64,000 nt of DNA from Mangrovimonas aestuarii (GTDB taxonomy: Bacteria; Bacteroidota; Bacteroidia; Flavobacteriales; Flavobacteriaceae), in the NCBI RefSeq assembly GCF_028767185.1, contig NZ_JARACK010000001.1, positions 1 to 64,000 of the forward strand, given 5' to 3'. How positions within the stretch are numbered: position 1 is the first letter of the stretch; each line of letters begins with the position of its first letter. The notes beneath the pieces were generated by a model. That model was not told where the DNA came from, did no database searches, and worked only from the letters and a program-made list of their open reading frames with translations. Position numbers and translations under genes: made by a program. Shown here one piece after another: positions 28,007 through 33,716 of the stretch.

Positions 28007-28030
28007 ATTATTGATTTTTGTTGGTTTAAC

Positions 28031-28063
28031 AATATAACAGTTCAAAGCCAAAATGTCCTACCC
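28031..28063 (-). promoter_or_regulatory. Shared bipartite motif, copy 1 (candidate ECF promoter of lipoprotein gene)
   Basis: Read on the minus strand: GGGTAGGA (28056-28063), 13 bases, AACTGTTATAT (28032-28042, followed by T at 28031). The same two blocks with the same spacing lie before fecR at 28691-28722. There is no TAnnTTTG box here. It ends 24 bases before the lipoprotein ATG. Confidence 0.7.
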
Positions 28064-28139
28064 CACTTTTTATTTTTTTACACTTTAAATAACTACTCCC
28101 TACAATAGAATGCGCCTGCTCTTATTAAAATTTATTTTT

Positions 28140-28147
28140 TACATTCG
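28140..28147 (+). promoter_or_regulatory. Weak -7 element of ECF sigma gene
   Basis: TACATTCG differs from TAnnTTTG at one fixed position and lies 21 bases before the sigma factor ATG. The shared ECF-like motif is absent here, so the sigma gene is probably transcribed by the housekeeping sigma factor. Confidence 0.35.
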
Positions 28148-28168
28148 TGAAGACCTAACCAACCCTAA

Positions 28169-28684
28169 ATGAATAAAAACCTACATAAGGACATTTGTAA
28201 TGAAACTTTGTTTTCTGCTATATTCAGGAGGCATGCCGAAAGCCTTCATGACTTTCTGTATTATAAATTTGGGGACGGGTTAAACTCAAGAGACAAAGTT
28301 CAGGAAGCCTTTGTTAAACTATGGCAAAACTGTGGTAAGGTCTCCCCAGACAAAGCCAAGAGTTACCTCTATACCACTGCCAACAATCTTATGTTAAATG
28401 AGGTTGCCCATCAAAAAGTAGTCTTAAAACACCAACAACACAAACCCAAAGATTACACCAACGAATCTCCGGAGTTCCAAATGCAGGAACAAGAATACAT
28501 GGCTAGGTTACAACAGGCCTTAGAAAAGCTAACTGAAGCGCAACGCACTGCTTTTTTACTCAATCGTGTAGAAGGAAAATCGTTTAAAGCAATTGCGCTA
28601 CAATTGGATATCTCCTCTAAAGCTGTAGAAAAACGAATTTATGGCGCCTTAAAAAAACTTAGAGAGGATATTAAAGAACTTTAA
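28169..28684 (+). CDS. ECF RNA polymerase sigma factor (FecI-like)
   Basis: 171 residues with only the two ECF regions. Region 2 spans about residues 15-80 (SLHDFLYYKFGDGLNSRDKVQEAFVKLW) and region 4 about 108-165 (LTEAQRTAFLLNRVEGKSFKAIALQL helix-turn-helix, then SSKAVEKRIYGALKKL). Directly downstream lie an anti-sigma factor of the FecR type and an STN-domain TonB receptor, the classical cell-surface signalling arrangement. The gene is 54 bases before fecR, and a candidate promoter recognised by this factor lies in that gap. Confidence 0.93.
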   Translation: MNKNLHKDICNETLFSAIFRRHAESLHDFLYYKFGDGLNSRDKVQEAFVKLWQNCGKVSPDKAKSYLYTTANNLMLNEVAHQKVVLKHQQHKPKDYTNESPEFQMQEQEYMARLQQALEKLTEAQRTAFLLNRVEGKSFKAIALQLDISSKAVEKRIYGALKKLREDIKEL

Positions 28685-28690
28685 TATGAT

Positions 28691-28722
28691 GGGTAGGAAA
28701 AAACAAGGTTTAACTGTTATAT
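28691..28722 (+). promoter_or_regulatory. Shared bipartite motif, copy 2 (candidate ECF promoter of fecR-receptor unit)
   Basis: GGGTAGGA (28691-28698), 13 bases, AACTGTTATAT (28712-28722). It begins 6 bases after the sigma factor stop codon and ends 16 bases before the fecR ATG. It is identical in both blocks and in spacing to the copy before the divergent lipoprotein gene. Confidence 0.7.
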
Positions 28723-28738
28723 AGATAAGCACAGTATT

Positions 28739-29632
28739 ATGGAGCGAGACAAACTGATAAAAAAATGGTTGAACCACGAGCTTAAGCCCGATGAGCTTGA
28801 AGCCTTCAAGCAATTAGAAGACTATCAAGAACTCACAAAATTGGACAATGCACTTCAACAGTTTAGACCTTCAAGTTTCGAAGTCGATGCCGAATTAATC
28901 AAACTTCAGAAAACCATAAAAAAAGGAAAAAGCAAACCAATTTGGAAAAATCCATTGTGGCATATTGCAGCTGTAATTGTTCTTTGCCTTGGGATTTACT
29001 ATTACACAATAACCTTAAACACACATATTTCCACTTTAGCTTCGCAAACAACATCGGTTATTTTACCTGATCAATCGGAAGCGCAGTTGAATGCAGGAAG
29101 TTCAATCACATACAACAAAAGTAACTGGGGTGATAAAAGAGAAGTTCAATTAAATGGCGAAGCTTATTTTAAAGTAGCCAAGGGAGTAAGGTTTCAAGTT
29201 AAAACTGAATTAGGAACCATAACTGTTTTGGGTACCCAATTTAATGTAAAGCAGCGAAAGGATTATTTTGAGGTGATCTGTTATGAAGGATCGGTGGAGG
29301 TTCAATCAACAGTTAGAAAAACAATTTTAAAACCTGGCGACCAAGTGTTGGTTATAAACGGAAAACCAATCCACAGAGAAAAAGAGATTGCTAAAAACCC
29401 AGCTTGGGTAGAAGGTTCCAGCCAGTTTATTAGTATCCCTTTGTATGAAGTTCTTAACGAATTGGAGCGACAGTACAATATTTCGATACAGATGAAACAA
29501 TTGGACACAAGCCGAATGTTTACGGGGCGTTTTACCCATACCGATTTAGACTTGGCGCTCAAATCAATCTGCACCCCAATGCAATTAACCTATTCACAAT
29601 CCCAAAACTCGGTTACCATAACAGGTGAATAA
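28739..29632 (+). CDS. FecR-type anti-sigma factor
   Basis: 297 residues. A cytoplasmic N-terminal part (1-70) that would bind the sigma factor is followed by one membrane segment (about 72-93, WHIAAVIVLCLGIYYYTITL). Then comes a periplasmic FecR domain (about 105-195, with LNGEAYFKVAKG and VLGTQFNV) and a C-terminal STN-like domain (about 225-297, YEVLNELERQYNIS), the form usual in Bacteroidota. It should relay a signal from the receptor encoded next to the ECF factor encoded before. The stop codon overlaps the receptor start by 8 bases. Confidence 0.93.
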   Translation: MERDKLIKKWLNHELKPDELEAFKQLEDYQELTKLDNALQQFRPSSFEVDAELIKLQKTIKKGKSKPIWKNPLWHIAAVIVLCLGIYYYTITLNTHISTLASQTTSVILPDQSEAQLNAGSSITYNKSNWGDKREVQLNGEAYFKVAKGVRFQVKTELGTITVLGTQFNVKQRKDYFEVICYEGSVEVQSTVRKTILKPGDQVLVINGKPIHREKEIAKNPAWVEGSSQFISIPLYEVLNELERQYNISIQMKQLDTSRMFTGRFTHTDLDLALKSICTPMQLTYSQSQNSVTITGE

Positions 29633-31931: not shown

Positions 31932-33716
31932 TTACATACGTTGTGGTACTTCAATACCCAATAGTTTAAATGCCGATTTGATTACCAATCCTACCTTCTC
32001 AGAAAGTTGAACTCTGAACAATTTATCTGTTGCATTTTCAGCTCCCAATATCGATACGTTTTGGTAGAAGGAGTTAAACGCCTTAACCAAATCGTAAGTA
32101 TAATTAGCAATTAAAGCCGGGCTGTGTTGGGTAGCTGCATTCTGAACCACTTCTGGAAACAGCTCCAACTGCTTTAACAATTCCCTTTCTTTTTCATGTA
32201 ACTCTATGCCAGAAGGATTTACCTCAAGATTGTAATCAAAATCCACCTTTCTTAAAATGGACTGTATTCTTGCATAGGTATATTGAATAAACGGCCCTGT
32301 ATTCCCTTGGAAGTCGATAGATTCTTTAGGGTCGAAAAGGATTCGTTTTTTAGGATCTACCTTTAAGATGAAATACTTTAAAGCACCTAGACCAATCATC
32401 TTGTACAGCTCTTGTTTTTCCTCTTCGGAATACCCATCAAGTTTACCCAATTCTTTGGAAATTTCCTCAGCTGTACCTGCCATTTCAGAAATCAAATCAT
32501 CAGCATCGACAACAGTTCCTTCTCTACTCTTCATTTTTCCGCTAGGAAGATCTACCATCCCGTAACTTAGGTGATATAGATTCTCTGCCCATTCAAATCC
32601 TAGCTTTTTAAGGATCAAGAACAACACCTTAAAGTGATAGTCTTGCTCATTCCCTACGGTATATACCATCCCACCTACATCTGGATAATCCTTGATACGT
32701 TGAATTGCCGTACCAATATCCTGTGTCATGTATACAGCTGTACCATCGGCACGCAAAACAATCTTTTCGTCAAGCCCTTCTTCTGTAAGATCACACCAAA
32801 CTGAACCATCCTCTTTTTTAAAGAACACACCTTTGTTAAGGCCTTCGGCAACAAATTCCTTACCTAGCAAATAGGTATCGCTTTCATAGTATAAACAATC
32901 GAAGTTTACTCCAAGATTTTCATAAGTAACATCAAATCCGTCGTACACCCACTGGTTCATAGTTTTCCAAAGGGCCACAACCTCTTCATCACCAGCTTCC
33001 CATTTTCTTAGCATCTCTTGGGCTTCCAGTAAAATAGGCGCTTGCTTTTTGGCTTCCTCCTTATCCATTCCCTCGGCAACCAAAGCTTCAATTTCCTTCT
33101 TGTATTCCTGATCGAACTTTACATAGTAGTTCCCCACCAATTTATCTCCTTTCAATCCCGTACTCTCTGGTGTTTCACCATTACCGAAACGCTGCCAGGC
33201 CAACATGCTCTTACAGATGTGGATTCCCCTATCATTAATAATCTGGGTTTTATACACCTTTTGTCCGGAAGCTCTCAATATTTCGGCTACACTATATCCT
33301 AACAGGTTGTTTCTTATGTGTCCCAAGTGTAACGGCTTATTGGTGTTAGGAGAAGAATACTCTACCATAACTGCTTTGTCTCCCTCTTTTGGGCTCACCA
33401 ATCCGAATGAATCTTCTTTTCTCATTTCGTTTAAGGCTGTCACATAATGGGCATCGCTAATCTCAAGATTCAAAAACCCCTTAACCACGTTAAAGGCTCG
33501 TACCTCTTCTACATGCTTCACAAGATATTCTCCTACGGCTGTACCAATTTGCATAGGGTTGCCCTTAATGCTTCGCAACATAGCAAATACAACTACGGTA
33601 ATATCACCTGCAAATTCCTTGCGGGTGGCTTGGAATTCTACTGTTTCCAAATTGGCGCTATACAGCTGTTCTGCTGCTTGCTTAATATGATGCGTTAAGG
33701 TGTTTTGAAGACTCAT
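31932..33716 (-). CDS. argS: Arginine--tRNA ligase
   Basis: 594 residues. It is the class I synthetase for tRNA-Arg. The N-terminal Add-1 domain (about 1-110) precedes the HIGH motif HLGH at 130-133 in SSPNTNKPLHLGHIRNN. The KMSKS region is the degenerate GKMKSREG usual in ArgRS, and the DALR anticodon-binding domain (ARIQSILRK onward) ends in the conserved C-terminal ...GIEVPQRM. A -7 box lies 22 bases upstream. It converges on the TonB receptor gene with a 3-base gap. Confidence 0.97.
   Translation of the reverse strand: MSLQNTLTHHIKQAAEQLYSANLETVEFQATRKEFAGDITVVVFAMLRSIKGNPMQIGTAVGEYLVKHVEEVRAFNVVKGFLNLEISDAHYVTALNEMRKEDSFGLVSPKEGDKAVMVEYSSPNTNKPLHLGHIRNNLLGYSVAEILRASGQKVYKTQIINDRGIHICKSMLAWQRFGNGETPESTGLKGDKLVGNYYVKFDQEYKKEIEALVAEGMDKEEAKKQAPILLEAQEMLRKWEAGDEEVVALWKTMNQWVYDGFDVTYENLGVNFDCLYYESDTYLLGKEFVAEGLNKGVFFKKEDGSVWCDLTEEGLDEKIVLRADGTAVYMTQDIGTAIQRIKDYPDVGGMVYTVGNEQDYHFKVLFLILKKLGFEWAENLYHLSYGMVDLPSGKMKSREGTVVDADDLISEMAGTAEEISKELGKLDGYSEEEKQELYKMIGLGALKYFILKVDPKKRILFDPKESIDFQGNTGPFIQYTYARIQSILRKVDFDYNLEVNPSGIELHEKERELLKQLELFPEVVQNAATQHSPALIANYTYDLVKAFNSFYQNVSILGAENATDKLFRVQLSEKVGLVIKSAFKLLGIEVPQRM

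Follow-up and report, generated by a model that had tools for sequence, protein, structure and literature searches.

An ECF-type promoter motif predicted before fecR and before a divergent lipoprotein gene in Mangrovimonas aestuarii, and its conservation in Flavobacteriaceae

Two exact copies of a bipartite motif, GGGTAGGA-N13-AACTGTTATAT, flank the gene for an ECF sigma factor in the window, by which we mean the whole 64-kb stretch of Mangrovimonas aestuarii DNA that was analysed. One copy points to fecR and a TonB-dependent receptor gene, the other to a divergent gene for an acidic lipoprotein (Table 1). We conclude that GGGTAGGA, as the -35 element, and TGTTATAT, as the -10 element, are very probably promoter elements recognised by the sigma factor whose gene (28169-28684) lies between the two copies. 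Each site consists of two blocks at a fixed spacing, lies upstream of a gene and points to it, and is linked to an ECF sigma gene whose region 4.2 it matches, with one clear exception among the relatives (L353, discussed below). A promoter definition of this kind would make the regulon of a widespread envelope-signalling system of the Flavobacteriaceae readable from sequence, with surface lipoproteins and other exported proteins as its content. It also suggests a circuit that has the regulator and the receptor as targets and leaves out the sigma factor.

Table 1. Features of the sigma-fecR-receptor locus, with positions in the window
Feature	Position	Strand	Remarks
Acidic lipoprotein, 671 aa	25991..28006	-	ORF; no Pfam or NCBIfam family
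Predicted start of lipoprotein mRNA	near 28027 (A)	-	conserved purine, inferred
Predicted ECF-type promoter of lipoprotein gene	28032..28063	-	-35 GGGTAGGA, N13, -10 region AACTGTTATAT; exact match
Possible sigma-gene promoter box TACATTCG	28140..28147	+	resembles TAnnTTTG; 29 bases before sigma ATG
ECF sigma factor, 171 aa	28169..28684	+	Sigma70_r2 and Sigma70_r4_2 (Pfam); region 4.2 helix KAVEKRIY
Predicted ECF-type promoter of fecR-receptor	28691..28722	+	same blocks and spacer length; exact match
Predicted start of fecR-receptor mRNA	near 28727 (A)	+	conserved purine; leader about 12 nt
fecR, sigma regulator, 297 aa	28739..29632	+	FecR and FecR_C domains above Pfam cut-off
TonB-dependent receptor, 767 aa	29625..31928	+	plug and barrel above Pfam cut-off

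Judged by its protein families, the layout of the locus is that of FecI/FecR/TonB-receptor-type cell-surface signalling: an ECF sigma factor in which regions 2 and 4 are both present is followed by a FecR-family regulator and a receptor. The best NCBIfam model for the sigma factor is TIGR02985, at a score of 110.5 that lies below the cut-off of 126.4. The receptor gene starts with GTG and overlaps the end of fecR. At its N terminus the window's receptor matches FecR_C with an E-value of 0.019, which falls short of Pfam's cut-off; among 16 aligned receptors, at E up to 0.05, FecR_C is matched in 15 and STN in 3. We read this N terminus as a predicted FecR_C/STN-like signalling domain. A single-sequence fold of the region gave an uninformative pLDDT of 40, and a search of the PDB with a profile of the 16 receptors found no chain at E 0.001. 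Between the sigma gene and fecR lie 54 bases in which no terminator-like site was found; the only such site between 27900 and 32100 falls within the receptor gene, on the minus strand. Read-through from the sigma gene's promoter may therefore also feed fecR and the receptor gene.

The divergent lipoprotein has no match in Pfam or NCBIfam. A similar ORF, judged by its first residues, stands at the same place in 39 of 40 wide orthologous loci, and the group could found a family of its own. The acidic lipoprotein and its orthologues share several invariant cysteines and runs of Asp. Its structural model predicts alpha/beta segments followed by beta-rich, partly lipocalin-like domains and is locally good (mean pLDDT 82.7, pTM 0.35). 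Foldseek returned weak or domain-level matches, the best to DUF4822 and others to DUF4847 and potempin E, as well as glycoside hydrolases at very low TM; for this reason a function from structure was dropped. As a speculation, the lipoprotein may be the surface partner of the receptor.

Exact matching bears out the initial annotation in its main observation, namely that the motif occurs twice with identical blocks, a spacing of 13 bases in both copies and unlike spacer letters. The coordinates given there were right for the copy ahead of fecR and one base off for the copy ahead of the lipoprotein gene, whose lower coordinate is 28032 and had been given as 28031. The distance from the end of the motif to the ATG, given as 16 to 24 bases, is indeed 16 for fecR and is 25 for the lipoprotein gene. 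Reading of both 32-base elements, and of the bases between them and the start codons, likewise agrees that neither copy has the housekeeping box TAnnTTTG, which a sigma-A promoter would carry. The whole genome (2,952,053 bases in 15 contigs) holds no further exact copy, let alone many copies unrelated to this locus: the pattern has 2 matches and its reversed form 0. The window was also shuffled 100 times with its dinucleotides kept; no match arose even when any spacer of 10 to 16 bases was allowed, and a chance origin of the pair was rejected on these two results. With a looser core and up to two mismatches, 51 matches were found in the same genome against 54 for the reversed control; two have no mismatch and are the known copies, and five have one. 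Weaker sites in this genome are therefore indistinguishable from noise. No prominent third target emerged from this search, and further regulon members in M. aestuarii were dropped from consideration.

Conservation was followed in 149 genomes of the same family, one per genus. A FecR match was found in 120 of these, and 50 are close (E up to 1.2e-80), with M. aestuarii itself included. Wide loci were taken from 40 of the other 49 genomes with close FecR, which makes 41 with the window. The element before fecR is present in all 41 at no more than one core mismatch, and the divergent element in 38, the remaining three having two mismatches. Seven further close orthologues carry both sites (7/7, up to two mismatches); the remaining two (L024, L029) are covered by short loci only. 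A second set was made of the best 80 loci of a scan of named genomes (Winogradskyella, Psychroserpens, Lacinutrix, Algibacter, Bizionia, Kordia and others). Within these 80, at up to two mismatches, the fecR element is found in 73 and the divergent element in 72; at up to one mismatch the spacer is 13 bases in 71 and 15 in one, with no other length in the range 9 to 17. The two collections overlap, and the 121 pooled loci comprise 111 that are distinct. The blocks are kept before fecR in 106 of the 111 (up to three mismatches) and before the divergent gene in 103 (up to two). This conservation supports the proposal of the initial annotation that the ECF factor transcribes both fecR-receptor and the divergent lipoprotein gene, as far as sequence can speak to it. 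The divergent site is missing in eight loci, in three of them because the contig ends. The five loci in which the fecR element is missing from the searched stretch are of different kinds: by eye, L246 and L271 have GTAGGA and CTGTTATAT about 90 bases upstream, L220 (Kordia) has an altered -35, and L239 and L256 have no visible element.

The pattern of conservation within the pooled distinct loci is that of a bounded element. Columns upstream of it are near background, so plain common descent of the whole stretch is not the explanation. Conserved are the two blocks, an A/T tract that opens the spacer (T in 95-97% at three positions in the divergent set) and a few bases just past the -10 block; to these the fecR set adds bases +34 to +37. 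Both sets have a purine at the 35th base after the first G of GGTAGGA, from which transcription is predicted to start near 28727 and 28027. In one relative, G045 (locus L061), the divergent element is intact and the lipoprotein gene is absent, an ffh-like ORF starting about 200 bases further on; here the promoter may have outlived its gene.

If the element is read by the neighbouring sigma factor, its spelling may be expected in step with the recognition helix. A contrast set of 80 loci from more distant FecR matches brought the total to 191 distinct loci; region 4.2 was readable in 181, and the other 10 were dropped. The window belongs to class A (helix K[AG]VEKR-IY, 113 loci), which has the -35 GGTAGGA: in the 107 of its loci with an AGG-N17-TGT pair, GT stands before AGG in 106 and after it in none. 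Class B (K[AT][VI]EKR-[MI][HSTM], 44 loci) has the -35 GTAGGGT, with GT before AGG in 42 of 44 and after it in 43. In class C (KV[VI]EYR-IY, 24 loci) GT is found neither before AGG (0/24) nor after it (0/24), and all loci read T[CA]AGG (-35 T[CA]AGGA). Nine further close orthologues were also inspected; the helix is readable in seven, where it is always KAVEKRIY, and GGTAGGA is present in five. L352 combines the -35 GGTAGGGA with the helix KAVEKRIY.

Single residues of the sigma factor predict the parts of the element to different degrees. Across 173 loci the 5' half of the -35 is best predicted by column A152, then by R133, S149, K155 and L161, and the 3' half by Y158, M75 and S40. For TGTT versus TGTC at -10 the best predictor is S65: residue 65 is threonine, in place of serine or alanine, in all 11 TGTC loci. 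These 11 loci belong to class B (L307, L309, L318, L319, L326, L327, L332, L334, L339, L346 and L348). Alignments to ECF sigma factors in the PDB place residues 152, 155 and 158 in the region 4.2 helix and residue 65 just before a W of region 2. In E. coli sigma-E the matching residues make contact with DNA.

In genomes that hold two or three classes, the -35 differs even between paralogues of one genome and so goes for the most part with the sigma factor rather than with the genome. In 22 of the 25 such genomes all loci agree with the class of their own sigma factor; each of the other three has one locus that is off in one half (L327, L334, L346). This correspondence also bears on the possibility that some other ECF sigma factor, or several whose specificities overlap, uses the element as a promoter. 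Such a reading has a small chance of being right: overlapping ECF regulons are known in other bacteria, as noted in PMC9723704, and the M. aestuarii genome has 18 Sigma70_r4_2 matches, 17 of them over the cut-off, but it has only one FecR match, both sites flank this sigma gene, and the -35 fits the sigma class throughout in those 22 genomes.

A site for some other DNA-binding regulator, an operator that controls both genes beside a separate nearby promoter, is improbable to much the same degree. One shared regulator would not produce a -35 half that differs between paralogues of the same genome in step with sigma class. The element further points to its gene at both places with the spacer fixed at 13, and no TAnnTTTG box lies in the window's two copies or in the stretches from there to the ATGs; in favour of an operator, a conserved bipartite site near start codons could be one. 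The distribution of the element speaks in the same direction as the paralogues. The core pattern has 182 sites in the 149 genomes and its reversed control 10, and the 84 genomes with a site comprise 49 of the 50 with close FecR, 35 of the 70 with more distant FecR and none of the 29 without a FecR match. The sole genome with close FecR that was missed (G108) has both elements with one to two mismatches.

The reading by the neighbouring sigma factor leads to a further, more tentative proposal, to which we give just short of an even chance. Flavobacteriaceae may hold a natural modular code, in which a few residues of FecI-like sigma factors mainly keep apart up to three sigma/FecR pairs per cell. 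All pairs would share one promoter geometry, AGG-N17-TGT. Within it, A152/K155 versus V/Y would set GT versus T[CA] before AGG, Y158 versus H/S would set A or G versus GT after AGG, and S65 versus T would set TGTT versus TGTC at -10. If the code is true, an exchange of two or three residues should be enough to shift a sigma factor to another promoter set, and the paralogous sigma/promoter pairs in one cell offer in any case a natural experiment on -35 recognition by ECF sigma factors.

Several results limit this code. Its clearest exception is L353 (G121), where the class A helix KAVEKRIY goes with a class B-form -35, AGTAGGGT, before fecR; either more positions matter or the code is not strict. 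The AGG-N17-TGT pair before fecR is missing in six of the 113 class A loci, five of them from Kordia, and by eye the Kordia loci have GGGTGGGA or GGGGA at the place of the -35. Three Kordia loci (L200, L220 and L235) have a GGGGAATTTT-like -35 before fecR with the helix KAVEKRIY unchanged, again an exception to the code. In a tree of 105 sigma factors, built with the helix and residue 65 excluded and with class A thinned to 37 of its 107 rows with a readable site, the classes need only two changes. Each class is a single clade, so that the independent events are few, about two, and no significance across independent events can be attached to the joint change. Independent-pairs tests of it had no power, and the Fisher tests, both of class against -35 and of residue 150 below, ignore kinship, the tree showing one to two class changes. 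Columns off the helix, S40, M75 and R133 among them, follow the -35 no less well than those within it, as shared descent would lead one to expect. The change from A to G after GGTAGG has occurred repeatedly within class A without a consistent change in the helix. For residue 150 and this A/G base in class A the Fisher test gave p 0.003 and the independent-pairs test was powerless; a link of residue 150 or 152 to the base was not kept.

In relatives the element also appears to precede genes for further exported proteins. Among the matches listed, mostly from genomes with close FecR, 40 extra sites away from the locus were chosen by hand, and 24 of the 40 have an ORF of at least 80 residues within 160 bases; the other 16 were left out of the count that follows. 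By a home-made signal-peptide rule, 19 of the 24 ORFs look exported, compared with 37 of 104 neighbouring ORFs, some of which may be false (p 0.0002). A secreted family of about 155 residues follows the element in five genomes (L165, L177, L182, L185, L187). One member compared with Pfam had no match. Four of the five genomes (G093, G029, G005, G040) have this site and the sigma locus on one contig, about 28-30 kb apart. This family is probably a third conserved target. Another secreted family, of about 391 residues, follows the element in three genomes (L156, L170, L176) and is a candidate target. It is very unlikely, more so than the operator or the other sigma factor, that the element acts within the two mRNAs, as a leader element or a signal for their translation: the nearly constant gap before fecR, whose ATG mostly lies 45-49 bases beyond the first G of GGTAGGA, would suit such a role, but the distance to the first start of the divergent gene varies from 2 to 45 bases (L061, with its other gene, aside), the spacer is unconserved except for its A/T tract, and the extra sites stand before unrelated genes at gaps of 4 to over 100 bases.

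The sigma gene itself seems to be served by another promoter. No element faces it in any of the 109 class A loci where the start of the sigma gene could be read, in agreement with the earlier suggestion that the ECF factor does not transcribe its own gene. The housekeeping -7 box of Bacteroidota is TAnnTTTG (PMC7366714, PMC9723704). A related form, TAnnTT[AT][GA], which was picked after viewing the sequences, lies at -40 to -17 of the sigma start in 81 of the 109 loci; in 200 sets made by first-order resampling it was there in 19.9 loci on average and in 32 at most. The stricter TAnnTT[TC]G within 60 bases was found in only 3 of 41 loci; the window's TACATTCG is one of the three and is not of the looser form. 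A housekeeping promoter for the sigma gene is thus probable, on the evidence of these boxes. The divergent motif starts no more than 61 bases from the sigma ATG in 73 of the 87 class A loci that have it within 130 bases; in the window the distance is 105 bases. Because of that distance, overlap or mutual exclusion of back-to-back promoters was left out of the explanation.

Taken together, we propose the following mechanism. A signal at the outer-membrane receptor would pass through the N-terminal domain of the receptor to FecR, and FecR would let the sigma factor work. Such a transfer is modelled on the FecI/FecR/FecA and Fox systems, as they are described in PMC9249621 and PMC11637429. The sigma factor would then transcribe fecR and the receptor gene rightward and the surface lipoprotein gene leftward. 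With the sigma gene made from a separate promoter, the response would raise its own regulator and sensor and not the sigma factor. FecR may be an inhibitor, or a factor that the sigma factor needs as in E. coli, and the sign of the feedback would follow from that.

ECF promoter classes and the rewiring of ECF specificity have already been published. The parts of the present locus are of known kinds. Among the open-licence PubMed Central papers listed in the literature searches, no description of this signalling system was found, nor any of a promoter between sigma and fecR, a divergent lipoprotein target or a class-wise -35 code. The nearest motif within the family is SM6 of Flavobacterium psychrophilum, likewise a predicted ECF promoter motif (PMC9723704). 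As presented there, SM6 has a CGT box, with type IX secretion genes among its targets, whereas the window's motif has TGTT and a GGTAGGA -35; 'GGTAGG' and 'FecR' were not found in the main text of that article, a transcriptome study whose authors state that more ECF-controlled starts may await discovery. Outside the family, the motif 2 and SigW-1 promoters of Bacteroides thetaiotaomicron have elements about 10 and 30 bases before mapped starts and are proposed to be ECF promoters (PMC7366714, PMC12596196). TGTT lies near -10 of the mapped starts of two SigW-1 promoters, although the motif search of those authors was not significant (PMC12596196). On these accounts the sigma factors and the targets are other than those in the window.

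Two known gene arrangements come closest to the locus as a whole. In polysaccharide utilisation loci of Bacteroides, sigma and anti-sigma genes stand beside an outer-membrane TonB-type transporter, as they do here (PMC11501099). The window differs in that the receptor gene has no SusD-like gene behind it, the next ORF (31932-33716) lying on the opposite strand, and in its partner, the divergent acidic lipoprotein that lacks a Pfam family. The E. coli FecI-FecR-FecA system is similar in its components: an ECF sigma factor, FecR as its regulator, and a TonB-dependent receptor that carries a signalling domain at the N terminus. In the description given in PMC9249621, its sigma factor is not autoregulated in its synthesis and its targets include the receptor gene, as is predicted for the window locus. 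The E. coli genes fecIR are co-transcribed, and FecI acts on the fecA promoter (PMC9249621). In the window, by contrast, the predicted sigma-dependent promoter lies between the sigma gene and fecR, and the regulator would be induced together with the receptor. The divergent lipoprotein gene would be a second target there, and the relatives have further candidate targets.
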